Below are positions 3,609 to 57,556 of a stretch of DNA of 64,000 bases, piece by piece. Within the stretch, counting starts at the first letter, position 1. Each line of letters opens with the position of its first letter. Both the position numbers and the translations under genes were made by a program. This DNA is from Pseudomonas eucalypticola. Its GTDB lineage: Bacteria; Pseudomonadota; Gammaproteobacteria; Pseudomonadales; Pseudomonadaceae. Location: assembly GCF_013374995.1 (NCBI RefSeq), contig NZ_CP056030.1, forward strand, positions 2,450,501 to 2,514,500. Direction: 5' to 3'. The notes beneath the pieces were generated by a model. The model searched no databases. It saw nothing but the letters and a program-made list of their open reading frames with translations, and was not told the DNA's origin.

Positions 3609-4735
3609 ACATTGCCGCCCACGACATCGACCACGGTCAGCACCAGGCCCAGGCCCTGCGTCTGCGCCGCAAGCGCCGGTTGCAGCTGGCAGCCGGGGTC
3701 GCCGGGTTATGCGCGGCGGTGGCCGCCGGCGGGTACTGGTGGTTGCAGGGGCGTTTCCTGGAGAGTACCGACGATGCCTATGTGCGCGCCGACTGGGTGC
3801 CCATCAGTGCACGCATCAACGGCTACGTCGCGCAGGTGCTGGTGGACGACGACCAGCCGGTGAAAGCCGGGCAGGTACTGGTGCGCATGGACGACCGCGA
3901 CTACCTGGCCCACCGCGATCAGGCTCGCGCGGCCGTGGCGGAAGCCGATGCTGCCGCGTTGGCCGGCCAGGCCAGCCTGGCCGTGGCCCAGGACCGGGTT
4001 GCTGAGCAGCAGGCCGCCATCGCCCAGGCCGCCGCCCAGGCCCAGGGCAGCCGTGCCGAATTCCAGCGGGCCAGCCTCGACCGCCAGCGTTACCAGGGTC
4101 TGGTACATGACCAGGCTGCCAGCGCCCAGCGCCTGGAGAGCGCGGAGTCCAGTTTCGCCCAGGCCCGCGCGACCCTCGATGCCGCGGTAGCGCGCCAGCA
4201 TCAGCAGGAGCTGGCGCTGAACGTCGCCCGCGGCCGCGAGACGCTGGCCCAGGCGGCGCTGCAACAACAGGTGGCGCGTCAGGCCCAGGCGCGGGCGCAA
4301 TTGGCCTTGGCCGATCATGCACTGGAAGATACTCAGATACGCGCGCCGTTCGACGGGGTGGTCGGCCAGCGCAAGGTACGTGAACGTCAGTACCTGTCGC
4401 CTGGCCTGCCGCTGTTGGCCGTGGTGCCGGTACAACAGGCCTATGTGGTAGCCAACTTCAAGGAGACCCAATTGCAGCACATGCGAGCCGGGCAGCCGGT
4501 GGAGCTGCGCGTGGACACCTACGGCGGCCAGCGTCTGCACGGGCACGTGGCGAGTTTCTCGCCGGGCTCGGGGGCAGTGTTCGCGCTGTTGCCGTCGGAT
4601 AACGCCACCGGCAACTTCACCAAGATCGTCCAGCGGTTCCCGGTCCGCATTCTACTCGACGCCCCCCAGGGCCAGGCGCCCATCCTGCCCGGCATGTCGG
4701 TGGTGGCCACGGTGGATACCCGCGATGAGCGCTGA
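3605..4735 (+). CDS. EmrA/HlyD-type membrane fusion protein
   Basis: A 376-residue periplasmic adaptor. A single N-terminal membrane helix (~residues 22-45) is followed by the EmrA lipoyl half-motif STDDAYVRADWVPISARINGYV, long Ala/Gln-rich coiled-coil hairpins (~residues 100-225), the second lipoyl half (IRAPFDGVVGQRKVRERQYLSPG) and a beta-barrel ending in LPGMSVVATVDT. It would bridge the inner-membrane MFS pump encoded next and the OMF encoded before. It overlaps the upstream gene by 4 bases and the downstream gene by 11. The symbol emrA is descriptive rather than proven, so none is given. Confidence 0.88.
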   Translation: MNIAAHDIDHGQHQAQALRLRRKRRLQLAAGVAGLCAAVAAGGYWWLQGRFLESTDDAYVRADWVPISARINGYVAQVLVDDDQPVKAGQVLVRMDDRDYLAHRDQARAAVAEADAAALAGQASLAVAQDRVAEQQAAIAQAAAQAQGSRAEFQRASLDRQRYQGLVHDQAASAQRLESAESSFAQARATLDAAVARQHQQELALNVARGRETLAQAALQQQVARQAQARAQLALADHALEDTQIRAPFDGVVGQRKVRERQYLSPGLPLLAVVPVQQAYVVANFKETQLQHMRAGQPVELRVDTYGGQRLHGHVASFSPGSGAVFALLPSDNATGNFTKIVQRFPVRILLDAPQGQAPILPGMSVVATVDTRDER

Positions 4736-6227
4736 GCAACCGGTTTCCCTGCGTGCCTGGGTAGCGGTCATCGGGGGGTTGTTCGGCTGCTTCATGGCGG
4801 GCATGAACGTGCACGTCACCAGCGCCGCCTTGCCGGAAATCGAAGGCGCGTTGGGGGCTAGCTTTCAGGAGGGGTCGTGGATCTCCACCGCTTACCTGGT
4901 GGCCGAGATCGTCATGATCCCGCTCACCGCCTGGTTGGTGGAGGTGTTCTCGCTGCGCCGGGTGATGTGGGTGGGCGCGTTCGTGTTTCTGCTGGCGTCG
5001 GTGGCCTGCTCGCTGGCGCCGAACCTGTCGGTGATGATCGCCATTCGCGTGGTACAGGGGGCAGCGGGGGCGGTGCTGATTCCGTTGTCATTCCAGCTGA
5101 TCATCACGCAGTTGCCGGCCAGCAAGGTGCCCATGGGCATGGCGCTGTTCAGCCTGGCCAACAGTGTCGCCCAGGCCGCGGGCCCGTCCATTGGCGGGTG
5201 GTTGACGGACGTCTATAGCTGGCGCTGGATTTTCTACTTGCAACTGGCGCCCGGCGTGCTGCTGTTGCTGGCAATCGCCTGGGCCATCGACGCCAGCCCC
5301 ATGAAGCTGGAACTGCTCAAGCGCGGCGACTGGGCCGGCATCACCGCCATGGTCATCGGCCTGGGCGGGGTGCAGATCGTGCTGGAGGAGGGCGGGCGGG
5401 AAGACTGGTTCGGTTCGCCGTTCATTGTCTGGATGAGCGTGGTGTCGGCCGTGGCGCTGGTTTATTTCATCGCCTCCCAGCTGTATGGCAGCCGTGCCTT
5501 CATCAACCTCAGGTTGCTCAAGGGCTACAATTTCGGCGTCGCCAGCGTGGCCATGTTCATTTTCGGGGGCATGACGTTCGGCCTGGTGTTCCTGGTGCCC
5601 AACTACCTGTCCCAACAGCAGGGCTACAGCGCCAGCGATGTGGGCGTGAGCCTGATCCTGTACGGGCTGGTGCAGTTGCTGCTGGCGCCCTTGATGCCCG
5701 CCTTGATGCGCGCCCTGAACCCCAAGCTGATGGTGGCCGGGGGGTTCCTGATCATGGCGCTGGGGTGTTACCTGGGCGCATTTCTGGACGCAGACAGCGC
5801 CGCCAATGTGATCGTGCCCTCCGTGGTCGTGCGGGGCATCGGCCAGCCATTGATCATGGTGGCCTTGTCGGTGCTGGCGGTGGCGGGCCTGAGCAAGGCG
5901 CAGGCCGGGTCGGCCTCGGCCCTGTTCTCGATGCTGCGCAACCTGGGCGGCGCGGTCGTCACGGCCGCGCTGGCCCAGGCGGTGGAAGTACGCGAACGCA
6001 TGCACAGCGAGCGTATCGGCGAATCCCTCAGCCAGTTCATGGCCCCGGTGCAGGAACGCCTGGGCGGCATGCTCGACCCGTCGTTGCCGGAGCAGCAGCA
6101 GACCCTGGCGGTGATGATGGCCAGCGTGCGGCATCAGGCTTACCTGATGGCCTACAGCGATGCGTTTTTCGTCGCCTGCCTGGCGTTGGCGGGGTGTGCG
6201 GTGGCGGCGATGATGATGCGTCGCTGA
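4725..6227 (+). CDS. EmrB-type MFS multidrug exporter (DHA2, 14-TM)
   Basis: A 500-residue drug:H+ antiporter. The start VAVIGGLFGCFMAGMNVHVTSAALPEIEG and the following WISTAYLVAEIVMIPLTAWL match TM1-TM2 of EmrB. The antiporter motif C region (VVQGAAGAVLIPLSFQLI) and about 14 hydrophobic stretches agree with DHA2. The C-terminal loop carries the EmrB-like RERMHSERIGESLSQ. Together with the two preceding genes it forms an EmrAB-TolC-like tripartite pump, probably under the upstream AraC regulator. Substrates of such pumps are usually hydrophobic or aromatic compounds; the specific one is not visible. It ends 29 bases from the convergent LysR gene. Confidence 0.9.
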   Translation: MSAEQPVSLRAWVAVIGGLFGCFMAGMNVHVTSAALPEIEGALGASFQEGSWISTAYLVAEIVMIPLTAWLVEVFSLRRVMWVGAFVFLLASVACSLAPNLSVMIAIRVVQGAAGAVLIPLSFQLIITQLPASKVPMGMALFSLANSVAQAAGPSIGGWLTDVYSWRWIFYLQLAPGVLLLLAIAWAIDASPMKLELLKRGDWAGITAMVIGLGGVQIVLEEGGREDWFGSPFIVWMSVVSAVALVYFIASQLYGSRAFINLRLLKGYNFGVASVAMFIFGGMTFGLVFLVPNYLSQQQGYSASDVGVSLILYGLVQLLLAPLMPALMRALNPKLMVAGGFLIMALGCYLGAFLDADSAANVIVPSVVVRGIGQPLIMVALSVLAVAGLSKAQAGSASALFSMLRNLGGAVVTAALAQAVEVRERMHSERIGESLSQFMAPVQERLGGMLDPSLPEQQQTLAVMMASVRHQAYLMAYSDAFFVACLALAGCAVAAMMMRR

Positions 6228-8869: not shown

Positions 8870-10487
8870 GTTGCCTGCCCATGCCTCCCGCGGTGTCGCC
8901 CGTCAGGCCTGGTGCGCGGGGCTGATCGCGCTGGTGGTGTTCATGGCCGGCGTGTGGGGCCAGGCCCCGGTCGGTTTCGATTCACGGTTTTTCCTCTTCG
9001 CCCAGGAAATGCTGCGCCACGGCCCCACGTTCTTCCCCACCACCTACGGTGAGCCGTACCCCGACTACTCGGCGACCTCGACCTTCTTCGTGTATCTGCT
9101 GTCGCTGCCCCTTGGCCAGGTGAACAGCTTCAGCGCCTGGCTGCCCAGTGCCATCGCCGCCGCGGTGACGGTGGCGCTGCTGTACCGGTTGGTGGCGCCG
9201 TATTCGCGCCAGTGGGCGCTGATCAGTATTGCCCTGCTGGCGCTCAGCGGCACCTTCGTGATGGAAACCCGGGCGGTGTCCCAGGACCTGATGCTCACTG
9301 CCGTGGCCCTGGCAGTGTTCTACCTGGGTTACGCCTGCGACCACTTCCACACGCCGCGCCGCCTGGGCGCCATCGCCGCGCTGTTGATCCTGGGGTTCGC
9401 CATCCGCGGGCCCATTGGCCTGGTGGTGCCCACCGGCATGCTCTGCGCCTATTACCTGGTCAGCGGCCAGTGGCGGCGGCTGTTCGCGGTCGGCTTCAGC
9501 GCCCTGGTGTTGTTGGGCCTGGCCATCGGCCTGCTGCTGTGGCTGGCCCGCCTCAGCGGCGGCGACGCGTTCGTCACCGATGTGGTGCACATGCAGGTCA
9601 CCGGGCGCATCGATGGCAGCGAGGGGGCCAGCGGCCCGCTGTACTATTTCATCAGCTCGTTGGGCAATTACGCGCTGGCCTACCCCCTGGCACTGCTGGT
9701 GCTGGCGGGCGCCTGGTTCGCCGGGCCTGCCCGCCAGGGGCCGGGCCTGCAACTGCTCAAATGCTGTGCGGTGGCGGGCCTGATCGTGCTGCTGGGCCTG
9801 TCGGTGCCCCAAGCCAAGAAAGCCCGCTATGTGTTGCCGATGTTGCCCATGGCGGCCGTCATTGCCGGTTATCCCTTCCATCGCCTGGGTGGGCGCGTGT
9901 TCGCCTGGTTGCGCGGGGGTATGCAAGTACTCTGGCTGGTGCTGCCCGGCCTGTTGCTGGTGGGGTTGCTGGTGGCGCACCGGCGGTTCCCCGAGTGGCT
10001 GCCTCAGGTGACGGCGCCGGTGGTGGTGCTGGCGGTGTTGCAACTGCTGGCCCTGGCGTTGCTGGCGAAGCCGGGCATTCGGGCCATCGGGTTGGCGTAC
10101 TGTGCCGTGCTGGCACTGTGGTCCAGCTACATGCTGGTATTCGAGCCGACTGAGCGCGCCCTCTACGACACGCGTCAGTTCAGTGCCCAGGTCGACCATG
10201 CCGTGCAACAAGCGCCGGGGGCGTTGGTGCTGCACGGCATGGGCAAGGACGCCAAGGCGATCAAGTTCATGGTCAACGTCGATCGTGACCTGCGCCCGCA
10301 GTTCACCGACAGCGTGGCGCAGCTGGCGGCGCTGCCGGTTGGCACCTGGGTGATGATGGACGCCAAGGACCGCGATGCCCTGCACGGCACCCCGCTCGGC
10401 AGCGCGGTGCCTGTGGTGCAGGGCAGGTTCGACAAGGACGACTACGTGCTGCTGCGGGTCGTGGCTGAGCGCACCGGCACTCCGTAG
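8862..10487 (+). CDS. ArnT-like/GT39 polytopic glycosyltransferase
   Basis: A 541-residue inner-membrane protein with about 12 hydrophobic segments and the GT-C layout. The first periplasmic loop after TM1 contains the acidic pair region (GFDSRFFLFAQEMLRHG, then GEPYPDYSATSTFF), the usual catalytic zone of ArnT and protein mannosyltransferases that use polyprenyl-phosphate sugars. A C-terminal periplasmic domain follows (~430-541). It is distinct from the ArnT encoded at 14389-16038, so the region has two GT-C enzymes. The acceptor is unknown; proximity to the arn island suggests lipid A or another envelope glycan. Confidence 0.75.
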   Translation: MLELPAHASRGVARQAWCAGLIALVVFMAGVWGQAPVGFDSRFFLFAQEMLRHGPTFFPTTYGEPYPDYSATSTFFVYLLSLPLGQVNSFSAWLPSAIAAAVTVALLYRLVAPYSRQWALISIALLALSGTFVMETRAVSQDLMLTAVALAVFYLGYACDHFHTPRRLGAIAALLILGFAIRGPIGLVVPTGMLCAYYLVSGQWRRLFAVGFSALVLLGLAIGLLLWLARLSGGDAFVTDVVHMQVTGRIDGSEGASGPLYYFISSLGNYALAYPLALLVLAGAWFAGPARQGPGLQLLKCCAVAGLIVLLGLSVPQAKKARYVLPMLPMAAVIAGYPFHRLGGRVFAWLRGGMQVLWLVLPGLLLVGLLVAHRRFPEWLPQVTAPVVVLAVLQLLALALLAKPGIRAIGLAYCAVLALWSSYMLVFEPTERALYDTRQFSAQVDHAVQQAPGALVLHGMGKDAKAIKFMVNVDRDLRPQFTDSVAQLAALPVGTWVMMDAKDRDALHGTPLGSAVPVVQGRFDKDDYVLLRVVAERTGTP

Positions 10488-10621
10488 CGGCGGCGCTCAG
10501 GCCGTGTGGGTCTGCTCGCAAAAAATCTGACTGGGCCAGGCCCCGTTTGCCTTGTTGAGCCCATGGGGCTTCACGCTACCGTCGCACGTCTTCCTGGCTG
10601 AAGGTTCACGCCTCAATGGCT

Positions 10622-11287
10622 TCATCGTGCCTCATTCTTGAGCGCAGTATCCCAGCCGCCCACGGCCAATACCCCCAGCGCCCGGGCCTTGTCGTGGTGG
10701 TTGACACGAACGAAGAAGGCCGTGCCGTAGTCGCTGGCATCGGCATGCTCGTAGCCAAGCTGGGCTTGCAGTTTGCTGATGCAGTCGCTGTGGGTGATCA
10801 GGATCAGGTTGCGGTGTGCCTGCTTGTGCGCCAGGGCATCCTGCAACAGATGGGTCTTGCTGCACGCGCGCAGCCATTCCTGAGCTTGGTTGGCCTCGCC
10901 GAACATGTAGTGGCCGGTTTGCGCCGTGCGCGTGGTCGGGCTGCTGATGACGTCGGTGTTGGCCATGCCAAGGGCACGGAAACCATCGCCGATGCGGTCG
11001 GCTGCCTGGCTGCCGTCATGGGTGATGCCATCGGTAACATCCAGGCATTGATCATCCGAGCGGTCGCAGCGCTCCGCATGGCGTATCAGCACGATCACGT
11101 CACCGGCGGCCCAATGCTGGCGCACGCGGGCGTTGGCCATGTTGCCGGCTTCACCCAGGTCCAGCGGCGAGCGCGGCCACGCCACGAAGCCTGCGATCAG
11201 CGCCGGCACGATCAGCACGGCGGCACCTTTCCAGACCTTGCGCAGCAGGCGTCGGGGAGGGCGGGGTATCGGCGTCATGGAAGGCAT
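10622..11287 (-). CDS. PmrG/Ais-like histidine phosphatase (copy 1)
   Basis: A 221-residue protein with an N-terminal membrane anchor (~19-38, AAVLIVPALIAGFVAW) and a periplasmic histidine-phosphatase domain. The catalytic RHxE motif is VLIRHAERCDR, the second Arg/His elements are SSPTTRTAQT, and the late catalytic His is in LILITHSDC. PmrG/Ais proteins are PmrA-regulated in enterics and remove phosphate from core heptose of LPS, which fits the adjacent lipid A island. It is transcribed away from the response regulator gene at 11533. A paralogue lies at 22825-23496. Starts at 11287 and 11278 are both possible; neither has a clear ribosome site. Confidence 0.75.
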   Translation of the reverse strand: MPSMTPIPRPPRRLLRKVWKGAAVLIVPALIAGFVAWPRSPLDLGEAGNMANARVRQHWAAGDVIVLIRHAERCDRSDDQCLDVTDGITHDGSQAADRIGDGFRALGMANTDVISSPTTRTAQTGHYMFGEANQAQEWLRACSKTHLLQDALAHKQAHRNLILITHSDCISKLQAQLGYEHADASDYGTAFFVRVNHHDKARALGVLAVGGWDTALKNEAR

Positions 11288-11532
11288 CCGTGGAGGGGCG
11301 GGCAGCCTTGGACACTAGGGGGCAGATCGTGGCACTGGGGTGAAAACACTGTGAAAAATTCGAAAATTCATTTCGTCGAAAGCGTTTGTCATTCTGGTGC
11401 GCAACGCGCCATGTAACACGATTTTGACGATCAGAATGCTATTACGCCTCCTGGATTCAGCGGAGCGTCACCGTGCCGACGCCAACCGTCACGACGCACG
11501 CACAGCAAGTACAAGAAAGTGGTGGGGGATTT

Positions 11533-12219
11533 ATGCAAATTCTGGTGGTTGAGGACAACCGAGACATTCTCGACAACGTGACCGAGTACCTGCAGTTGCG
11601 CGGCTGCGAGGTCACCCGGGCGGAGGACGGCCTGAGTGGCCTGCACCTGGCGGCCACGCGCTCGTTCGACATGGTGATACTCGACGTCATGCTGCCCGGC
11701 ATGACCGGTACCCAGGTGTGCCAGCGCCTGCGAGAAAGCTCGCGCGCCGATACGCCGGTCATCATGCTCACCGCGCGCGACGCCTTGACCGACCGCCTGG
11801 ATGGCTTCAAGGCCGGGGCCGACGACTACCTGATCAAGCCATTCGCGCTGTCCGAACTGATGGCCCGGATCGAGGCTCTGGTGTGGCGGTTCAAGCGCCA
11901 GAGCTCACGGGTGCTCAAGGTGCATGACCTGTCTTACGACCTGGACACGCTGCAGATTACCCGTGGCGACGCATCGCTTCGCTTGAACCCCACGAGCCTG
12001 AAGATGCTTGAACTGTTGATGCGCAAGAGCCCGGCGGTGGTGACCCGGCGCGAGCTGGAGGAAAACGTCTGGGGCGAATACACCCCCAACAGCGATAGCC
12101 TGCGCAGCAACCTGCATTTGTTGCGGCGCATGGTCGACAAACCCTTCGATGTGCCGTTGATTCACACCATCCACGGCATTGGCTACCAACTGGTCTACAA
12201 ACCAGGTGAGTCCGGCTAG
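11533..12219 (+). CDS. OmpR/PhoB-family response regulator
   Basis: A 228-residue regulator. The receiver domain has the acidic pair EDN at residues 7-9, the phospho-acceptor Asp51 (VILDVMLPG), the conserved Thr in MLTARD and Lys102 in LIKPF. The C-terminal winged helix (~130-225) includes NPTSLKMLELLMRKSP and ends GIGYQLVYKPGESG. The start at 11533 is chosen because MQILVVEDN is the canonical N-terminus and a GGGGGA site sits just upstream. No kinase gene is adjacent; the nearest is at 21527, on the far side of the arn operon, which suggests a split two-component pair controlling it. Confidence 0.88.
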   Translation: MQILVVEDNRDILDNVTEYLQLRGCEVTRAEDGLSGLHLAATRSFDMVILDVMLPGMTGTQVCQRLRESSRADTPVIMLTARDALTDRLDGFKAGADDYLIKPFALSELMARIEALVWRFKRQSSRVLKVHDLSYDLDTLQITRGDASLRLNPTSLKMLELLMRKSPAVVTRRELEENVWGEYTPNSDSLRSNLHLLRRMVDKPFDVPLIHTIHGIGYQLVYKPGESG

Positions 12220-16038: not shown

Positions 16039-16919
16039 GGGCGTTGTACCCCGAGCCAGCCTTCGCGCCCTTCCAGGGCGCCACGGGTCAATTGTTCCAC
16101 CGGCAGGCTGCCGGGGTCGGTGGGCAGCAGTTGCCCCAGGGGTTGGAACTGTATCTGTCGCTCGCGTGCCGTGGCCAGCAGGCGGCGGAAATCATCGGCC
16201 ATCAGAATCCCTTCCACTTCGGCGTGTATGGTGTAGTTGTTCAAGCCTCCAGGCTTGAAGCGTTCCAGGATGTAGTCATTGAAACCAGCGGCACTGACCG
16301 TTGGCCCCACCACCTCGTCGAAGGTGGGCAGGTCCACGGGCACCTGCACGGTACCCGGGGTGCCATCGACCAGGCGCGGCTGGAACAGGTGGCTACCCCG
16401 GCAGTCGCTGTTGTAACGGAAGCCGAAGTCTTCCTTGGCCTGCACCACGCGCTCGTCCGCGCGCCAGCCGGCGGCGGCGGAGCAATCGATGCGCTGGCCA
16501 AGAATGTCGTTCAGGGTTTCCACGCCACGGCGGATCTGCTCATGCAACCGTGCCTCGCTCCAGCGCCCGGCGTTGGCCTGCCAGCCATGGTGGTCCCAGG
16601 CGTGCAGGCCGACTTCGTGGCCGGCGTCGCGGGCTTGGCGCATCAGGTGCCCCAGGTCACGGCCGATGGGCTTGCCTGGCCAGGCGGTGCCCGCCAGCAG
16701 GATGTCCCAGCCGTAAAGGCCGGCTGCATTGGAACGCAGCATCTTCCACAGAAATCGCGGGCGGATGAGGCGCCACAAGTGGCGCCCCATGTTGTCCGGC
16801 CCGACACTGAAGAAAAATGTCGCCTTGACCTGGGCTTCGTCGAGCAGTTCGAGCAACCGCGGCACCCCTTCACGGGTGCCTCGGTAGGTGTCGACGTCGA
16901 TGCGCAGACCTGCCTGCAT
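16035..16919 (-). CDS. arnD: 4-deoxy-4-formamido-L-arabinose-phosphoundecaprenol deformylase
   Basis: A 294-residue NodB-type deacetylase. The N-terminus [19 protein letters not shown] carries the first catalytic Asp pair, [15 protein letters not shown] follows, and [12 protein letters not shown] supplies the metal-binding histidines. It removes the formyl group from the undecaprenyl-linked Ara4FN so that the sugar can be flipped and transferred. Its start abuts the arnA stop with one base shared at 16919, and its stop overlaps arnT by 4 bases. Confidence 0.93.
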
Positions 16920-18910
16920 CAGCGCTTGCTCTCGATTTCAACCATGGCTTCGCGCAGGAAGAAGTCCAGGGTCTTGCCGATGGTTTCGCTGAGCTCGATG
17001 GTCGGGGTCCAGTCGATCAGGCGTCGGGCGTTCTCGATGCTCGGCGTGCGGTGCGTCACGTCCTGGTAGCCATTGCCATAGAACGCCTTGCTTTCGATTT
17101 CCCGGAAGCCGGCGAACGGCGGGAAGTTGCCGCGCAGCGGGTGTGCCTCGAACTGGCGCAGCAGTTCTTCGCCCAGTTGGCGGATGCTGGCTTCGTTGGT
17201 CGGGTTGCCGATGTTGATGATTTCGCCATCGCACTTGCCGTCGCGGTTTTCGATGATGCGTGCCAGGGCCTCGATACCATCGTCGACGTCCGTGAAGGTA
17301 CGTTTCTGTTCACCACCGTCCACCAGGCGAATCGGGGTGCCTTCCACCAGGTGCAGGATCAACTGGGTGATGGCACGGGAGCTGCCGATGCGGGCCGAGT
17401 CCAGGCGGTCCAGGCGCGGGCCCATCCAGTTGAAGGGGCGGAACAGGGTGAACTTCAGGCCTTTGTCGCCATACGCCCAGATGACGCGGTCCAGCAATTG
17501 CTTGGAGACCGAGTAGATCCAGCGCTGCTTGTTGATCGGGCCGACCACCAGGTTGGAGGTGTTCTCGTCGAACTGGGCGTCCTGGCACATGCCATAGACT
17601 TCCGAGGTGGACGGGAAGATCACGCGCTTGTTGTATTTCACGCAGTGACGAACGATTTTCAGGTTTTCCTCGAAGTCCAGTTCGAACACGCGCAGCGGGT
17701 TGCGGGTGTATTCGATCGGGGTGGCGATGGCCACCAGCGGCAGGACCACGTCGCACTTCTTGATGTGGTATTCGATCCACTCGGAGTGGATGCTGATGTC
17801 GCCTTCCACGAAGTGGAAACGCGGGTTGCCGCGCAGGTGTTCGATGGCGTCGGAGCCGATGTCCAGGCCGTAGATTTCATAGCGGTCGTCGCGCAGCAGG
17901 CGCTCGGACAGGTGGTTGCCGATGAAACCGTTGACGCCCAGGATCAGCACGCGGGTGCGGCGCACGGGGCGGCCAGCGGCCTTGCCCACCAGTTTCGAAC
18001 CTTCCACCAGGCCCAGTTCGCGGGCCAGCTGCGGGCCGCTCAGGTACAGGCCGTCGTTGTTGCGCTGGCCGGCGGTGATCTGCAGCGCGTCGGTGCCACA
18101 GGCAATGCGCAGCGGTTCGACGCTGATCACGTGGCCAGGTTCGAAGCCCTGATTGCCCGCGACCACTTCGGCGCTCCAGACGATGAGTTTGTGCTCACCC
18201 ACGGCGCAGAAGGCACCCGGGAACGGCTGGGTCACGGCGCGCACCAGGTTGAACAGCTCCTCGGCTGGGCGTTTCCAGTCCAGCAGGCCATCGGCCGGGG
18301 TACGGCGGCCGAAGTACGAGGCTTGGCTTTCGTCCTGCTCGGTTTCGCTGACTTCGCCCTTGGCCAGCAACGGCAGGGTGTCGTGCAGCAGGGCCGCCGC
18401 GGCATCGCGCAGCTTGGCGTGCAGGCTCAGGCCGGTATCGGCGCGCTCGATGGCCACGCTTTGCTGGGCGACGATGGCGCCGGCGTCCGGGCGCTTGACC
18501 ATGCGGTGCAGGGTGACGCCGGTCTCGGTTTCACCGTTGACCAGCACCCAGTTGGCCGGTGCGCGGCCGCGGTAGCGCGGCAGCAGCGAGCCGTGCAGGT
18601 TGTAGGCTCCGTTTTTGGCGCTGGCCAGCACGGCTTCGCTCAGCAGGTTGCGGTAGTAGAACGAGAAGATGAAGTCGGCGTCCAGCTTGGCGATACGCTC
18701 GACCCAGATGGGGTGGTTGGCATCTTCGGGGGCGTGCACCGCAATGCCCTTGCGGGCACAGAGTTGGGCCACCGAGCCGTAGAAGTTGTTTTCCTTGGGG
18801 TCGTCGGCGTGGGTGAACACGGCGGCGATGTCGTAGCCTGCCTCGAGCAGGGCGTTGATGCCGGCGCAGCCGATATCGTGGTAGGCGAAGACAACAGCTT
18901 TCTGGTTCAT
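16919..18910 (-). CDS. arnA: Bifunctional UDP-Ara4N formyltransferase / UDP-glucuronate oxidative decarboxylase
   Basis: A 663-residue two-domain enzyme. The N-terminal formyltransferase (~1-300) has the catalytic Asn104, His106 and Asp142 in [14 protein letters not shown] and KRPDAGAI. The C-terminal short-chain-dehydrogenase-like domain (~315-660) has the Rossmann motif [18 protein letters not shown] and the active-site STSEVYG. It makes UDP-4-keto-pentose from UDP-glucuronate and later N-formylates UDP-Ara4N made by ArnB. It overlaps arnC by 4 bases. Length and domain order match the family. Confidence 0.96.
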
Positions 18911-48991: not shown

Positions 48992-49098
48992 GGGTCTGTA
49001 TGGCAGGCGAGGAAGCGGAGTTTACGTGTTGTAAATGAGCATTCCGAGTCTGTTTTCAACGCAGCATGGCCGAGTTGGGATGCATTTCGTACAGAGCC
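48992..49098. mobile_element. 107-bp IS-like/MITE remnant
   Basis: GGGTCTGTA (48992-49000) and TACAGAGCC (49090-49098) are 8/9 inverted repeats at the ends of a non-coding segment. Inside, GTTTACGTGTTGTAAAT is a near palindrome. No transposase is encoded. The overall form is that of a deleted insertion sequence or MITE. It lies just before the frameshifted cyclase gene, and the rest of the 48860-49183 gap holds no gene. Confidence 0.4.
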
Positions 49099-49183
49099 TT
49101 AACACCAGAACCGCCACGGACATGGGCACGAACACCTCCTGGTACTGTCTCACTCCGACCTGAACCCAATGACCCGGTGCCGC

Positions 49184-50400
49184 ATGCCTGTTCCTGCCCC
49201 CGACAGCTCCAGCCCCGACGATCCGCACATTCTGGCGCAGGTCGAACTCACGATTGCCGCCGGTGTGCGCACGCTGCGTTTCAGCCGCGACCTGGAGCAG
49301 CGTTACCAGCGCGACACCGTCCAGCAGCGGCTGAGGTTCATCACCGCCGTGGGCATCGGGGGGCACTGGTCTACAACCTGTTCCTGCTCAGCGACTGGCT
49401 GACCTTGCGCGATAAATTCGCCTGGGTGGCAGCAGGGCGGTTGTGCCTCATCACGCCGATGTTCGTCGCTTTGCTGTACTTCGGCCAGCGCCTGACGCGG
49501 CGCTGGGCCGTGGAAACCCTGGCAGCCACGGGCACGGTCGTGTCGTCATTGATGCCCCTGGTGGTGATGATCTACAGCGACAGCCCTTACCGGCTGCACT
49601 ACCAGCTGGGCATGCTGCTGATCATGGTGTACTGCACCATGATCCAGCAGTTGCCCATGCGGTACGCCTCCGTGGCGATGTTGTGCATGCTCGTGATTCA
49701 GCTGGTGACCACGTACCTGGCGGATTTCGCCGATATCCGGATCTGGCAGGCCAACGCGCTGTTGTTCGTGTCCACGGTGGCGCTGTTGCTGATGGCCTCT
49801 TATTTCCTGGAGCGCGCCAGCCGCTTGAGTTATCTGTTCGCCTTGCGCGGGCGTTTGCTGCAGGTGCAGTTGATGGCCCTGGCCAGGACGGATGCCCTGA
49901 CCCAATTGTTCAACCGTCGCTACCAGGGCGAGGTCATGGGGTCTATCTGGGCGGCCGCCGCCAAGGAGCCGGCTAGCGTGGCGGTGATTCTCCTGGATAT
50001 CGACCACTTCAAAGCCTACAACGACAACTACGGCCACCTTCAGGGGGACGCGTGCCTCAAGCAGGTCAGCCGCGCGGTGCAACGCACGGCCCAGGAGCAT
50101 GGGGCCCTGGCGTTTCGGTTTGGGGGTGAGGAAATCCTCATCGTGCTGGTGGATGCCGATGCCGCCCGGGCCCGGGAGCTGGCCGAAGCCTTCCGCGCCG
50201 CGGTGGCAGCGCTGGCGGTGCCGCACCCTGTGCTGGGCGAAGGGGCGCGTGTGACCATCAGCCTGGGCATCGCGGCCGCGATCGCGCCGCGGGTCAGCGC
50301 CAATGCCTTGATCGCCTCGGCCGACAGCGCACTGTATGACGCCAAGCGCGCGGGCCGCGACTGCCTGCGCTGCGCACGGCCCGAGGCGGTTCACGGCTGA
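49184..50400 (+). pseudogene. Frameshifted membrane diguanylate cyclase
   Basis: The N-terminal part (MPVPAPDS, then FSRDLEQRYQRDTVQQRLRFITAVGIGG) is in one frame and the rest, starting ALVYNLFLLSDWLTLRD, in another; the switch coincides with a run of six G at 49358-49363. Adding one G would restore a single ~405-residue protein with about six TM helices (~60-230) and a C-terminal GGDEF domain whose motif is FGGEEI (Ile for the usual Phe). So this is either a true mutation, a slippage-prone tract or a sequencing error. If read as is, the cyclase domain has no proper start. Confidence 0.75.
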
Positions 50401-51732: not shown

Positions 51733-52770
51733 TCAGAGGGTCAGGCCGAACAGGCTGAAGTGCTGGTGGGGGAAGCGGACGCGCACCGGCAGCGAGTCTA
51801 TTCGCCACTCGTTGGCCAGCGGCTCGGTGAAGCGCGCCGGCACCATCAAGCCTCGGGTAGGGCTGCTGAACGGCTTGCGCAGATCGCTGGGCAGCGGGTT
51901 CGCGCTTTCAGCCGGATTGATCACCTGGGCGCCTACCCATTGACCATTGGGCAGGCGTACGTCCAGGGCTGAACCCGGGGTGGCATGTTCCACATCCTTG
52001 GGGTCCAGGTACACCCACAATTGCGCCGGGCCATTGCGCTCCAGGCGCATCAGCAAGGTCCCAGGGCCAACGTTTTCGCCGGGGGCGGTAATCACTTCGG
52101 CCACGCGCCCGCGCTCGCTGGCCTCCACATTCATGCGTGCCAGTTGCTGGCCCAACCACTGACGCTCCCGTTGCTGCTGTTGCTCGTAGCGCTGGTTCTC
52201 GGTGTTACCGCCGTTGCTCACGCTGCGCTCGAAGGCCAGCAATTCCGCTTCGCGGCTATCAAGGGCGTTCTGGGCGTCCAGCAGTTCGCCACGGGTGGCG
52301 GCGCCTTGCTGTACCAACCGGCGGGTATCGCTTACCCGTTGCGCGGCACGGTTGACCAGGCTCTGCAGCACCGCGCGGCTGTGGGCCCCCAGGTCGGCGC
52401 TGGTGCCCACGGTGGCCGTGCTGTCGGCCTGCAGCAAGGTCAGGCGCAGGCGCCATTCGGGGTTGTCCAGGTCCACCAGCGGCGTGCCAGCCTCCACGTG
52501 GTCACCGGCCTGCACGCGCAGGGCACGTACCTCGCCCGGTTGCAATGCGCGCACATCCAGGGTGGGCAGGCGCACCAGGGCCGGGGCCTCGATGCGCAAC
52601 AGGTCCAGGCCGTAGCGGCCTGCCAGCCACAAGGCCGGCAGCAGGATGAGGAACAGGATCAGGTACCAGCGCAAGCGGAACGCCAGGCGTTTGCCAGGCG
52701 CATACAGCACCTGCATGCCGTTGTCCTGGGTGGGGTGCTGCTCTTTGGGGCTGTTGAATCGAATCTTCAT
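51733..52770 (-). CDS. HlyD-type membrane fusion protein of the putative glycan exporter
   Basis: A 345-residue adaptor. A cytosolic tail of ~34 residues precedes one membrane helix (WYLILFLILLPALWLAG). The first lipoyl half follows (PGEVRALRVQAGDHVEAGTPLVDLDNPEW), then a moderate coiled-coil hairpin (~115-220) and a second half (GRVAEVITAPGENVGPGTLLMRLE) with a beta-barrel. It overlaps the TolC-GH gene by 4 bases. Its role here is probably to connect the synthase in the inner membrane to the outer-membrane duct, as HlyD-like BgsB does with the mixed-linkage glucan synthase BgsA in Sinorhizobium. Confidence 0.82.
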   Translation of the reverse strand: MKIRFNSPKEQHPTQDNGMQVLYAPGKRLAFRLRWYLILFLILLPALWLAGRYGLDLLRIEAPALVRLPTLDVRALQPGEVRALRVQAGDHVEAGTPLVDLDNPEWRLRLTLLQADSTATVGTSADLGAHSRAVLQSLVNRAAQRVSDTRRLVQQGAATRGELLDAQNALDSREAELLAFERSVSNGGNTENQRYEQQQQRERQWLGQQLARMNVEASERGRVAEVITAPGENVGPGTLLMRLERNGPAQLWVYLDPKDVEHATPGSALDVRLPNGQWVGAQVINPAESANPLPSDLRKPFSSPTRGLMVPARFTEPLANEWRIDSLPVRVRFPHQHFSLFGLTL

Positions 52771-54845
52771 GGGGCTCTCGGGTAGTCGGTCCAGGATTGC
52801 CAGTCGATGCCAGTCAGCCCGGCGGGCTGCAACGCTTGCTGCCAGCGCGCGGCCTGGGCCTGCAATTGCTGGGCATTGGCGTCTGCCCAGCTGAGGTCGG
52901 CGGGTTGGTCCGGCTCAACGCTCTGGGCCAGGCGCAGGTGCAGTGCCGGCCATTGACGGGCGATGGCCAGGGCCTTGGTGGCGCTGGACTCGGGGTTGCG
53001 GGTAAAAATCATCAGGCTGACCTGGCTCACCCCCAGATGCGGCAACTCGCAGGGCACGCACGGCGTGCGCCGGGCCTCGTCGCTGAACCAGCGCGGGTGG
53101 CTGGACAGGCTCAGGGGCCAGGGGCTCGCAGCCTTGGCTTCGCGTACGGTGTCGAGCCACTGGCGCAGGCGCTGGTCCGGGACCGGCCAGCCCAACTGTT
53201 CGACTTCCAGGTCCAGGTGCAGGCCATCGAAGGGCAGGGCGCCCAGGCGCTGGATCAGGGCAAGCAATTGTGGGCGCTGGCTGGGTTTGATCCAGGTCGC
53301 GTCGCCCAGCAGCAGGTTGACCTGCAGGCCTTGGGCGTGGGCGCGGCGCAAGAGCTGGGCGAGCAATGCCTGGGTTGCGGCCATGTCGGCGACCTGGCCG
53401 CCGTCCAGGCCTACATTGACCACCTGCATACCGGCCTGTTTCAGCGCCTGCAATTGCCGGTCCTGCTGGCTGGGGTCGAGCAGCGCCTGGCTGTGCCAAA
53501 GGTAGGTGCCTTGGCGCCAATGGGCTTCCACCGGCGCTGTGGCGCTGCCCTGCCACTGCAGCGACTGCCCGCCCAGCAACGCGTCGAACGCCGGGCCCTC
53601 GTCGCCGAACAGGCGCAGGGCTGCGTCTTGCAGCCACGCCGCATGCCAGGCGGCGATTTGCGCGAAGCCGGCGTTGTAGTGGTCCACCTCGGCCTGCAGC
53701 AAGCGCAGGCTGGCCTCGCCGGCGTCCAGGCCGGTGCGCTGGCGGCGCTCGCCGATGATCTGGTCCACGGCCTGGCGGCGCTCACTGCGCCACAGGTATT
53801 CATCCACGTTGCGCCGTTGCTGCTCCAGCACCTTGCCCAGTTCGCGCAGCAAGTTGCCGCGTTCCTGCTCCTGGGCCTGCACGGCGGCCTGGTAGCGCGC
53901 TTCGCCTTCGCGGCCACGGGCCGAGCCGTAGTCCATGAGGTCCACGGGCGCCGAAAAGGTCACCCCAGCGCTCAGGCCGCTGCCGTTGTCACCGGCACCG
54001 CTGCGCTGTTCCACCGTCTGGGTCACGCTGAAATACGACTCGATGGCGCTGTACCAGGGGCGCTTGCGGTCCTGCTCGGCGGTGGCCAGGTCGGCATTGC
54101 GCCGGGCCATGCGCGGGTTGCTTTGCAGTTGGTCTTGCCAGGCCCGCAGTGGCTGTGGGTGGCTGGCCAGGGCAGTGGCCTGGGGGGTGTCAGCGGCCGT
54201 CACGTCCACGCCCAGGCTGCGCAGGCTGGTGCGCACATCGTCCAGCAAGTCGGCCTGCAGGGCGCAGCGGTGGGTCACGGCAGTCCATTCGCTGGTCATC
54301 AGGCGGGCGTCGGAAGGCAGAATCCATTGGCCCTCCAGGCGTTTGCGAACCTGTTGCGCGGCGTCCTGGGCGGCTGCCTCGACGCCCTGGCACAGTTGCT
54401 GTTCCTGGGTGGCCCGCCACCAGTCGGCGTAGGCGCTGCGCACTGCCAGGCGTTGGCGGGCGCGTTGGTAACCCTGTTCGATTTCACCCAGCTGCGCGTC
54501 ATGCTCGCTGGCGCGCACGGCATCCATGCGCCGGCGCAGGCTGCCCAGCAGCGGGTAGCGCACACCGATCGCGGCGTTGCGGCCGTAGTAGTCGTCGCGA
54601 AGGTTTTCGGTGACCAGTTCATGGTAGCGGCCGACGTTGGCATTGCCGAACATCTCCCAGCCACTTTCGCTGTCACGTTGGTCGCGGGCAGCGTAGCGGG
54701 CCTGCAACTGGGCACTGGCCGACGCCGTGCCGGCGCCGTCACCGGCTTCTTGCAGGGCCTGTTCAAGGGTCAAGGGGGCTGCCGTGGCCAACAGCGGCGC
54801 GCAGAAGGCCAGGGGCAGCAGGCGAAGTGCTGTTTTAACAATCAT
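52767..54845 (-). CDS. TolC-like outer-membrane protein fused to a GH18-like domain
   Basis: A 692-residue protein with two parts. After a signal peptide (~1-22, LLPLAFCAPLLATAAP), residues ~23-435 look like an OMF: TLEQALQEA at the start, long amphipathic helices, strand pieces YPLLGSLRRRMD and SAGVTFSAPVDLMDYGSA. Residues ~445-690 resemble a TIM-barrel glycoside hydrolase; FDGLHLDLE (539-547) fits the GH18 catalytic pattern DGxDxDxE except for His543, and keeps the catalytic Glu547. OMFs normally end at ~430-480 residues, so the extra ~250 are a true addition. It lies 15 bases after the synthase and overlaps hlyD. Confidence 0.75.
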   Translation of the reverse strand: MIVKTALRLLPLAFCAPLLATAAPLTLEQALQEAGDGAGTASASAQLQARYAARDQRDSESGWEMFGNANVGRYHELVTENLRDDYYGRNAAIGVRYPLLGSLRRRMDAVRASEHDAQLGEIEQGYQRARQRLAVRSAYADWWRATQEQQLCQGVEAAAQDAAQQVRKRLEGQWILPSDARLMTSEWTAVTHRCALQADLLDDVRTSLRSLGVDVTAADTPQATALASHPQPLRAWQDQLQSNPRMARRNADLATAEQDRKRPWYSAIESYFSVTQTVEQRSGAGDNGSGLSAGVTFSAPVDLMDYGSARGREGEARYQAAVQAQEQERGNLLRELGKVLEQQRRNVDEYLWRSERRQAVDQIIGERRQRTGLDAGEASLRLLQAEVDHYNAGFAQIAAWHAAWLQDAALRLFGDEGPAFDALLGGQSLQWQGSATAPVEAHWRQGTYLWHSQALLDPSQQDRQLQALKQAGMQVVNVGLDGGQVADMAATQALLAQLLRRAHAQGLQVNLLLGDATWIKPSQRPQLLALIQRLGALPFDGLHLDLEVEQLGWPVPDQRLRQWLDTVREAKAASPWPLSLSSHPRWFSDEARRTPCVPCELPHLGVSQVSLMIFTRNPESSATKALAIARQWPALHLRLAQSVEPDQPADLSWADANAQQLQAQAARWQQALQPAGLTGIDWQSWTDYPRAP

Positions 54846-54860
54846 GGTGATGAAAAAGCC

Positions 54861-56189
54861 TTAGAACCGGTTGGCCCGTTTGAGTACCCACCAGGGCGCC
54901 ATGCTCGATTCCTCGTGCCCGCGCCGCAGGGTTTCATTGAGAATGGCGACCACGCTCCAGCAACGCAGGGCGTACATCGCCAAGGGGTAGAACGGCAATA
55001 TCCAGATCAGCGCCAGGTCCTGGCGCGGCCGTTCGCTGACCATCAGCATCAGGCCCAGGTACAACAGGCCGCTCATGGCCAGGTAGAGGGCGTAGATCAG
55101 CAGCGAATAGAACACGAAGGCACTGAATGGCAGGATGAACACCGCCACCAGGCTGTAGCCCAGGATGATGAAGGGCAGCACCAGCTGGAAGAACAGCCCG
55201 CTGAGCATCAGCATGAGGAAGTTCGGCCAGCCCAGCAGCCGTGGCGTGAACGCATGGCGGTGCTTGCGCAGGTAGACGAAGAACAGGTCACCGTCCCAGC
55301 GCAGGCGCTGGTCGAGGAAGCTGCGCAGGGTCGACGGTGCGTCGGTGTGGCCGATGGCCCGTGGTTCGAAGGGTATGCGCAAGCGGTAGCGGCGGAAGTA
55401 GCTCTTGATGCGCAGGGTCAGGTCCAGGTCTTCGGCGGTATGGGTATCCCAGCCGCCGATCTGGCGCAGGAAGTCGCGGCGAAACGCGCCGAAGGCCCCG
55501 GAGACATTGTTCACCAGGTTCCACTCCGCCAGGCCGATCTTGCACATGTGGATCGACAGCAGATACTCCAGCGCCTGGATGCGCGCGATCCACGACTGGC
55601 GGGCGTTGCGCACCCGCAGGCTGCCCGCCACTGCCGGCACCTTGGGGTCGACGAAGTGGCGCACCATGCGCACCACCATGTCGTTGTCGAACGACGTATC
55701 GCCGTCGACGTTGATCAGGATCTCGCCACTGCTGAAGGCCAGGCCGGTGTTCAGCGACGACACCCGGCCACCCCGCTGCCACTTGGCGATGGGCCGCAGC
55801 ACGCGGTTGGCCGGCAGGCGTTGCTCGGCCTTGAAGCGGCGCACCACCTCGGTGGTCGTGGCGTTGGCGCTGGCGCCGTCGACGATAGGGATGATCTCGA
55901 TCATCCCCGGGTACGTCTGTTCGGCCAGGCTACGCAGGGTCAGCTCGACGTCCTTGCCCTCGCTGTAGCAGGTGATGATCACCGACACTCGCGGGTGCCA
56001 GTTGCGGTGCAACGGCACCGCACTGTGCTCGCGAATGAACCAGCGCAGGGTACCCAGCAGCACCAGCAGGTTGAGCGGCACTTCCAGAAGCAAAAAGTAC
56101 GGGAAGACCATCAGGAATAATTGCCAGTGACCGTTGGGCCCCTCGATCTGCGCCAGCCAGGCGTTGAGGTGGTCCAGTAACACGCCCAT
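54861..56189 (-). CDS. Processive family-2 glycan synthase
   Basis: A 442-residue inner-membrane GT2 of the cellulose/hyaluronan/PNAG synthase type. One N-terminal helix (~25-48) precedes the catalytic domain (~65-300) with Asp104 (PIVDGAS), the metal-binding VDGD (161-164), the acceptor-site AED (252-254) and QRLRW (294-298). Four or five C-terminal helices (~318-425) form the channel. There is no PilZ domain, so c-di-GMP control would need another protein, probably the gene just upstream. The start at 56189 shares one base with that gene's stop (TGATG). The sugar polymerised is unknown. Confidence 0.88.
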   Translation of the reverse strand: MGVLLDHLNAWLAQIEGPNGHWQLFLMVFPYFLLLEVPLNLLVLLGTLRWFIREHSAVPLHRNWHPRVSVIITCYSEGKDVELTLRSLAEQTYPGMIEIIPIVDGASANATTTEVVRRFKAEQRLPANRVLRPIAKWQRGGRVSSLNTGLAFSSGEILINVDGDTSFDNDMVVRMVRHFVDPKVPAVAGSLRVRNARQSWIARIQALEYLLSIHMCKIGLAEWNLVNNVSGAFGAFRRDFLRQIGGWDTHTAEDLDLTLRIKSYFRRYRLRIPFEPRAIGHTDAPSTLRSFLDQRLRWDGDLFFVYLRKHRHAFTPRLLGWPNFLMLMLSGLFFQLVLPFIILGYSLVAVFILPFSAFVFYSLLIYALYLAMSGLLYLGLMLMVSERPRQDLALIWILPFYPLAMYALRCWSVVAILNETLRRGHEESSMAPWWVLKRANRF

Positions 56190-57556
56190 CAGAGTGCCCC
56201 GGCCAGACGCGCCATCAGCAGTTCGGCATCTTCCTTCTCGATCAGGTCCCCCGGCGCCACGCAGCCGCTGGTGGTCAACTGGATGTCCTGCAGGTCCTGG
56301 CCCACGAACAGTTCGCTGATCTGGTTGAGGCGCTCGGTCACCGTCCGCAGGCCTGGCGCATCCGTGTACATCAGTAGCAGCCACAGGTGTTCTTCGCTGG
56401 TGCGGGTGCAACGGTCAGTCTCGCGGATCGCCACCTGAATACGCTCGATCAGGCTGTCGAGCAGCGCGTGGCCCCGTTGCGGGCCCAGGCGGCGCAGGGT
56501 GACCCCCAGGTTGCGGAAGCGCAGGCCCAGCAACGCGAAGGTCGGCGTGCCATGGCGGGCGATCAGCTCCAGTTGCCAGTCGAGCAAGGTCTTGAAGGTG
56601 CTGACCCCTACCATGGCCAGCCCGCCGAAATAGGCGTCGCTGCTGCGCTCCAGGCCCTGGCGCGCGGTCAACTGGCCGGTTTCGGACAACTGGTAATCGC
56701 GGATTTCGCGCACCTGCAATTGGTCGGGGGCGTGGTGCTGGCCGCAGTCCAGGCAGCGCGCCTCGACATCCGCGTCGACGAAGAAGGCCTGGCAGGCATT
56801 GCAGCGGTAGTTCTCCAGCGGCCGGTCGTAGTCAGTGCCGATGTGACGCAGGCGGGTCAGGCAATTGGGGCACACCAGCACACCGTCCTTGAGGTACTCG
56901 GCCTGGGCACCGATGTGGCCGCAGGTGAAGCAGTGCAGCGATGGCTGGCGCACGATGTCCAGGGCCGTGCATTCCACGCACACGTCCACGTAGTTCAGGT
57001 GGCCGCTGCCGCAACTGCGGCACAGGCGGATGCGGTCCACCAGCGCGGTGCTGTCGAGCAGATGCCGTTGCGCAAGGTTGTGTACAAGGGCATGGGCGTT
57101 GACCTGGTCATCGCCCAGCGCATCCACCAACGGGTAGCTGTAGTGCCCCGGTGACAGGGGCGCGCGCACGGCTTTAAGGGTGCCGGGCGCGCGCAACCAC
57201 AGGTAGGCCAGCACCTGGGCTTCAAGGCCTTCGGGGGCGCGACCCAGGTTGAACACCGCCAGGCGTTCCTGCCACTGCTGCCACGCGGCGTGCAGTTGGC
57301 CGGGCAACGGGCCATCGGTCAGGGCCTGGGTCAGGGGGTGATCGGTGGTGCAGTAGATCAGGGTCAGGCCGTAGGCCGGGTGGCGGCGCAGTTGCTCGGC
57401 CCAGCGGGCATTCTGCTCGCCGCCTGCGGTGAGTACCACGACGTCGCAAGGCGGCTGTGCAAACAGCGCCGCGGGGTCGGTGAAGCGGGGGCTGGCGGGG
57501 GGTAAAGCGTCATGGCCGGGGCCAAGTATGGCGAGGCGCAGGGTAGAAGCGGGCAT
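56189..57556 (-). CDS. Zinc-ribbon protein with degenerate GGDEF, predicted c-di-GMP receptor
   Basis: A 455-residue cytosolic protein. Residues ~1-165 are a response-like or regulatory region with no motif I can name. Residues 179-271 hold six CxxC pairs (179/182, 193/196, 209/212, 229/232, 252/255, 268/271), enough for three zinc ribbons. Residues ~300-455 follow the GGDEF fold, but the catalytic motif is SEEHL (387-391), so it cannot be an active cyclase. RETD (378-381) lies exactly five residues before it, the RxxD I-site position that binds c-di-GMP, as in PelD. It is the first gene of the four-gene operon and shares one base with the synthase start. Confidence 0.72.
   Translation of the reverse strand: MPASTLRLAILGPGHDALPPASPRFTDPAALFAQPPCDVVVLTAGGEQNARWAEQLRRHPAYGLTLIYCTTDHPLTQALTDGPLPGQLHAAWQQWQERLAVFNLGRAPEGLEAQVLAYLWLRAPGTLKAVRAPLSPGHYSYPLVDALGDDQVNAHALVHNLAQRHLLDSTALVDRIRLCRSCGSGHLNYVDVCVECTALDIVRQPSLHCFTCGHIGAQAEYLKDGVLVCPNCLTRLRHIGTDYDRPLENYRCNACQAFFVDADVEARCLDCGQHHAPDQLQVREIRDYQLSETGQLTARQGLERSSDAYFGGLAMVGVSTFKTLLDWQLELIARHGTPTFALLGLRFRNLGVTLRRLGPQRGHALLDSLIERIQVAIRETDRCTRTSEEHLWLLLMYTDAPGLRTVTERLNQISELFVGQDLQDIQLTTSGCVAPGDLIEKEDAELLMARLAGAL

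Follow-up and report, generated by a model that had tools for sequence, protein, structure and literature searches.

A four-gene operon in a 64,000-nucleotide stretch of the Pseudomonas eucalypticola genome (contig NZ_CP056030.1, positions 2,450,501 to 2,514,500; this whole stretch is hereafter the window, and the genome that holds it measures 6.4 Mb) probably encodes a synthase-dependent exopolysaccharide secretion machine controlled by cyclic di-GMP (c-di-GMP), the polymer, its export and the binding of c-di-GMP all being predicted. The four genes lie on the minus strand, from 57556 down to 51733, with junctions that are in turn a 1-base overlap, a 15-base gap and a 4-base overlap. In order of transcription they encode a TackOD1 protein with a degenerate GGDEF domain (455 amino acids, aa), a family 2 glycosyltransferase (GT2, 442 aa), an outer membrane factor (OMF) joined to a barrel domain (692 aa) and an HlyD adaptor:

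56189..57556, minus strand, TackOD1 zinc-ribbon and degenerate GGDEF protein, predicted c-di-GMP receptor (Pfam, hydrophobicity, structure model)
54861..56189, minus strand, GT2 family membrane glycosyltransferase, predicted polymer synthase (Pfam/NCBIfam, motifs, hydrophobic segments)
52767..54845, minus strand, fusion gene of an OMF (TolC-like) and a TIM-barrel hydrolase-like domain
51733..52770, minus strand, HlyD-family periplasmic adaptor, 345 aa (HlyD_3, 38.4 bits; membrane segment 33-55)

A first-pass annotation had described both the tight leftward operon, which the gene coordinates reproduce exactly, and its contents (a zinc-ribbon/degenerate-GGDEF protein, a GT2, a TolC-like protein with a glycosidase-like part and an HlyD protein), which were confirmed. 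A scan for sigma-70 promoters upstream of the operon found none.

In the mechanism that we propose, the degenerate-GGDEF protein would sense c-di-GMP and, as a soluble protein, may dock on the GT2, which would polymerise a sugar chain and push it over the inner membrane. The HlyD adaptor would carry the chain through the periplasm to the TolC-like channel, and the predicted hydrolase fused to this channel would trim and release it, probably on the periplasmic side. We go further only tentatively, at somewhat short of an even chance, in suggesting that the operon stands for an undescribed family of exporters defined by TackOD1, GT2 and HlyD, with a metal-binding TackOD1/GGDEF switch, an exit carrying a fused polymer hydrolase, and a PgaC-like synthase making a polymer of N-acetylgalactosamine and/or N-acetylglucosamine (GalNAc, GlcNAc) by Pel-like chemistry.

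Conservation and probable core of the system

Within the genus, the TackOD1, GT2, hydrolase and adaptor genes were each found in an identical set of 15 out of 149 genomes (thresholds E<=0.001 for TackOD1, E<=1e-60 for the GT2, E<=1e-10 for the hydrolase domain and E<=1e-40 for the adaptor), an association beyond chance. The hydrolase frame measured 697-764 aa, with the OMF, in eight of these genomes and 283-333 aa in seven. The named loci are the 80 best among 92 that a pattern scan with the OMF-hydrolase alignment had confirmed, and they are therefore conditioned on that protein; all four genes were present in one order and on one strand in 75 of them. The first-pass annotation had asked whether the genes co-occur in order in Pseudomonas relatives or lie scattered, and they turned out to form one conserved operon. 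The record titles include Pseudomonas, Stutzerimonas, Vreelandella, Marinobacter, Ralstonia, Burkholderia and Synechococcus bins. Three of the incomplete loci (L037, L049, L055) are cut by contig ends and two, both from Stutzerimonas, have the hydrolase but none of the remaining genes within 9 kb: L053 8965-10992 (OMF-hydrolase) and L088 8161-9765 (hydrolase). These two may be orphans or remnants. Two equal-scoring loci (L065, L067) sit on one joined contig of Pseudomonas frederiksbergensis 36C6, perhaps an assembly artefact.

A second set, of 22 full-length TackOD1 loci, comes from two samplings that share two loci, one at the level of the class (12 of 274 genomes) and one at that of the phylum (12 loci in 11 of 349 genomes). 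Eight of the 20 matching genomes in the class sample had partial or weak matches and were excluded (L113 and L114 are over the cut-off); wider stretches around these two (L134 and L135) contained no GT2 match. Matches to the GT2 and HlyD profiles adjoin TackOD1 in 21 of the 22 loci, window included, although in L130 they are fragments in broken frames, and the adaptor is matched only weakly in L149 (E 1e-5) and L150 (E 9e-5). TackOD1-GT2-HlyD thus looks like the core of the system, as judged from these profile matches. The one locus with neither match is L123, where a TackOD1 and GGDEF protein (4624-6015) lies near an open reading frame (ORF) that by eye resembles a response regulator. This core stands alone in ten loci (L122, L125, L127, L131, L137, L144, L145, L147, L151 and L152), of which L137 came from the GT2 search and is not among the 22. 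Upstream of the core in L152 there is a 659-aa membrane-protein-like ORF (10155-12134), a possible second glycosyltransferase.

A putative c-di-GMP receptor

The first product matches PF18551 (TackOD1) with 206.8 bits against a Pfam cut-off of 32; the zinc ribbon of the first-pass annotation is present, with the qualification that it is already a named Pfam domain. The GGDEF domain that follows stays slightly below its own Pfam threshold (21.9 versus 23.8 bits). The protein contains no hydrophobic segment above 1.6, hence no membrane segment is predicted, and its structure model has a mean pLDDT (predicted local distance difference test) of 86.0 and a pTM (predicted template modelling score) of 0.58. 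The regions of interest, with the I-site placed by comparison with that of PleD, are:

56687..57235, minus strand, TackOD1 domain, residues 108-290 (Pfam range)
56306..56596, minus strand, degenerate GGDEF domain, residues 321-417 (Pfam range)
56414..56425, minus strand, I-site motif RETD (R378xxD381), R in 27/28 and D in 28/28 rows
56384..56398, minus strand, SEEHL replacing GG[DE]EF, residues 387-391, GG[DE]EF kept in 0/28 rows
56330..56332, minus strand, R409, candidate third I-site arginine, 27/28 rows

Each of the 11 cysteines of the TackOD1 domain and His208 are invariant in all 28 aligned rows, and position 209 is cysteine in 26 and histidine in two. The GGDEF domain is predicted to be devoid of cyclase activity. 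It shows, at the level of sequence, the features of PelD, i.e., a degenerate GGDEF with an RxxD motif and a third arginine, and we infer that c-di-GMP would be bound at R378, D381 and R409 as in PelD. An ORF on the plus strand (49066-50400), about 1.3 kb from the end of the operon, has a C-terminal GGDEF domain whose GGEEI-type signature looks intact by eye, and could be a local source of c-di-GMP.

TackOD1 is known from archaeal response regulators, alone or linked to REC, and its function is termed obscure in the available text of PMC5847659. The archaeal domains belong to the same Pfam family and share the five CxxC motifs plus one [CH]xxC (here of the HxxC type), whereas in the window the domain is fused to a degenerate GGDEF and encoded beside a GT2 and an HlyD protein. 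If our reading is right, it provides a predicted job for TackOD1.

The predicted synthase and its likely product

The second product matches Pfam GT2 families, has hydrophobic segments and contains the three motifs listed in the first-pass annotation, which had called it processive:

55698..55709, minus strand, VDGD, residues 161-164, xDGD in 95/97 family rows and xDAD in the other two
55428..55436, minus strand, AED, residues 252-254, 97/97 family rows
55296..55310, minus strand, QRLRW, residues 294-298, 95/97 family rows and QRMRW in the other two

AED is the catalytic-base type motif of GT2 enzymes and QxxRW the motif of the processive ones, and all three are conserved across the 97 rows of this processive-type GT2. 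Among curated models PgaC_IcaA scored best (159 bits, cut-off 422.3), followed by NodC (93), with CelA far behind (25.9, cut-off 699.1). The annotation had named grouping with a non-polymer enzyme as a point that would tell against it; the best scores came from polymer-synthase models. We therefore predict a polymer synthase from these motifs and scores, and a polymer would be its product rather than an oligomer.

The best-scoring model raises the question of whether the operon is a variant of the pga system, in which a divergent PgaC makes poly-beta-1,6-GlcNAc (PNAG) and the remaining parts have been replaced. The barrel described below, which resembles the C-terminal domain of PgaB, would fit as well. 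However, no protein of the genome passes the PgaC_IcaA cut-off, the operon GT2 being the top score, and since the model matches 14 of 14 control genomes (over cut-off in one) such a score alone indicates a GT2 and not PNAG. Membership of pga was rejected, with the GT2 far under the cut-off and no Pfam match to a PgaB deacetylase, a PgaA-like pore or PgaD in the four products. Some loci also have a linked C4-epimerase that is needless for a pure GlcNAc polymer, and altogether we regard the PNAG variant as unlikely. Membership of bcs was likewise rejected on the CelA score and on the lack of a PilZ match in the four products.

In 15 of the 80 loci the epimerase gene lies no more than about 100 bases beyond the HlyD gene and in the same orientation. 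One such protein aligned with 6wj9/6wjb, which we take to be PelX of P. protegens, over 310 residues (469-472 bits). PelX is a UDP-GlcNAc C4-epimerase that yields UDP-GalNAc (available text of PMC9135694). Homologues (E<=1e-80) are found in 142 of the 149 genus genomes, the copy of the window genome having 68% identity and lying far from the operon; an extra copy, with 82-87% identity, is found in four of the 15 operon-bearing genomes. As a pointer to the sugar the linked epimerase is suggestive only. Taken with a GT2 nearest to PgaC and a PgaB/GH18-like barrel, it suggests an N-acetylhexosamine polymer (GlcNAc and/or GalNAc).

A short product, similar to a chito-oligosaccharide or a glycolipid and exported as a small molecule through HlyD and TolC, would agree with the second place of NodC and with the common service of HlyD and TolC parts in efflux and type I export. 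The four products include no pump gene, and a hydrolase-like domain together with a predicted c-di-GMP receptor is typical of synthase-dependent matrix polymers (for PelD, available text of PMC7112168), which makes a short product distinctly unlikely. Elsewhere in the genome (G000:C1:4990089-4993541) two adjacent frames of 908 and 867 aa bear GT2 domains, another possible polymer locus.

The adaptor and the predicted exit

The adaptor matches HlyD_3 above the cut-off of 22.2 bits and has a single membrane segment, at the N terminus. HlyD and OMF families would also be expected if these were parts of type I protein secretion or multidrug efflux that stand by chance beside a GT2. The adaptor fell below the cut-offs of the type I HlyD model (25.2 versus 208.65 bits) and of RND_mfp (46.7 versus 94.9), no pump gene, including any ABC match, was found by Pfam among the four products, and the HlyD and OMF-hydrolase genes occur in the very 15 of 149 genomes that have the GT2 and TackOD1. 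Type I membership, which the first-pass annotation had seen as a threat to its reading, was accordingly rejected, and a chance assembly of export parts is hardly credible.

The 692-aa protein starts with a hydrophobic, signal-peptide-like stretch and has two halves:

53556..54776, minus strand, OMF (TolC-like) domain, residues ~24-430 (profile comparison; Pfam OEP below cut-off)
52767..53540, minus strand, TIM-barrel hydrolase-like domain, residues 436-692 (structure model)
53199..53213, minus strand, DLEVE, residues 545-549, after barrel strand 4, with D545/E547/E549 invariant in 32/32 rows

The OMF domain does not reach the OEP cut-off (20.8 versus 22 bits) and none of the 39 matches listed (E <= 0.001) in a whole-genome OEP search is at this gene, so the channel reading rests on profile comparison. 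Aligned with hhalign to eight of the genome's other OMF proteins it gave a probability of 97.7 over 408 columns (16% identity), with a weak match to MtrE (E 1.1e-4), in agreement with the TolC-like domain first described. An OEP profile built from the same genome matches none of 61 OMF-hydrolase proteins. The second half, annotated earlier as glycosidase-like, was modelled as a confident TIM barrel (mean pLDDT 94.2) whose fold is close to the PgaB C-terminal domain; the top Foldseek rows are isocitrate lyases. The hydrolase-domain profile gave only chance-level matches to sequences of solved structures, and for this reason only the fold was used. One search of structure sequences was made with alignment A3; alignment A4 is A3 minus L017 (whose end leaves the alignment) and L111 (broken frames). 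D545, E547 and E549 are candidate catalytic acids, and the families considered for the barrel were GH18 and GH153.

The TolC-type exit had been put forward as a distinguishing feature, but it does not define the system. It holds for the 50 of the 75 complete loci with the OMF-hydrolase fusion, while the OMF domain is missing in the 25 with the hydrolase alone, and the ten core-only loci lack it too. L061 and its close relative L035 agree over the signal peptide and some 45 residues at the N terminus, after which L061 continues directly with the linker that leads into the hydrolase, as if the channel domain had been lost in frame. In the GT2 tree (94 rows thinned at 93% identity to 61, several branches weakly supported and the distant rows on long branches of unsure order) 14 of 16 hydrolase-only rows fall inside a mostly fused group of 51; the remaining two, L128 and L129, have an OMF half so divergent that the profile does not recognise it. 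We infer that loss of the channel domain by deletion gave rise to the hydrolase-only forms. A search of the DNA on either side of the hydrolase-only loci with the OEP profile turned up no separate OMF gene, but this profile misses divergent fused OMFs and could thus overlook a divergent partner; the sole match listed, L041, is itself a fused-protein locus. The channel would therefore be replaceable, another TolC-family channel presumably being supplied in trans to loci that lack it. In L148 an OEP-like gene of its own (16296-17591) lies on the other strand, about 4.6 kb from the adaptor-TackOD1-GT2 genes, and is a possible trans channel.

In a second layout (L128, L129, L146, L148, L149) a protein of 673-936 aa and the adaptor precede TackOD1-GT2. 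In three of the five the large protein has a match to the hydrolase profile, around HLD(I/V)E; in the other two it has none. A profile built from the five proteins matches the window protein over the end of the OMF domain and the first barrel half (probability 95.0, 270 columns; 0.1 for a TackOD1 profile as control), and the fusion may therefore be old.

Comparison with known systems

Pel comprises the pelA-G genes, with a GT4 synthase (PelF), PelD in the membrane and an exit via PelBC, whereas here there are a GT2, a soluble TackOD1 protein and an HlyD/OMF exit, and no GT4 match was found among the four products. In common are the degenerate GGDEF with an RxxD I-site, as in PelD (available text of PMC7112168), and the PelX-like epimerase linked in some loci. 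The claim that the operon does not match pel, psl, alg, bcs or pga stands for pga, bcs and pel by cut-offs and gene content; psl and alg were compared by their known gene content only.

A cellulose or mixed-linkage glucan system with a swapped c-di-GMP domain is the remaining alternative. The parts of PMC12430437 at hand propose XcsAB-TolC as a GT2, HlyD and TolC route for cellulose in cyanobacteria, with a hydrolase partner (XcsC) and a PilZ domain in XcsA; the model is without experimental validation and its parts are not in one operon. In Sinorhizobium/Rhizobium, bgsBA makes a mixed-linkage glucan with a GT2 and an HlyD-like partner, activated by c-di-GMP that binds at the BgsA C-terminus (available text of PMC9495663). 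The shared plan, including a hydrolase partner, speaks for such a system, but with CelA so far below cut-off and no PilZ match we find it, judged by models rather than by the BgsA and XcsA sequences themselves, quite improbable. From bgsBA the operon differs in its separate TackOD1-GGDEF protein and in having four genes instead of two. With XcsAB-TolC it has in common, as gene content, the GT2, the HlyD-like adaptor, the TolC exit and the hydrolase partner, but here these are in one operon, with a TackOD1 receptor and the hydrolase-like domain fused to the channel, and the cellulose synthase with PilZ is not found.

The distinct export machine that had been claimed is thus neither pga, bcs, pel nor type I, although a GT2, HlyD and TolC route had been proposed earlier and the idea is not unprecedented. 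Literature searches, including the available text of PMC7716237 and PMC8461298, found no prior description of the system, with subscription papers thinly covered and absence not proof. If confirmed, it would add one more polymer system, and a biofilm-polymer route, to those surveyed in Pseudomonas, with synthase, adaptor, channel and hydrolase united in one operon. Whether an XcsAB-TolC-like route extends to operon-organised clusters is left open in the parts of PMC12430437 at hand; the operon makes this directly testable in environmental Pseudomonas, and comparing the channel-hydrolase fusion with the hydrolase-only forms offers a natural test of the role of each half. Among known systems the operon comes nearest to XcsAB-TolC in its plan and to Pel in its control, and departs from each in a defining feature.
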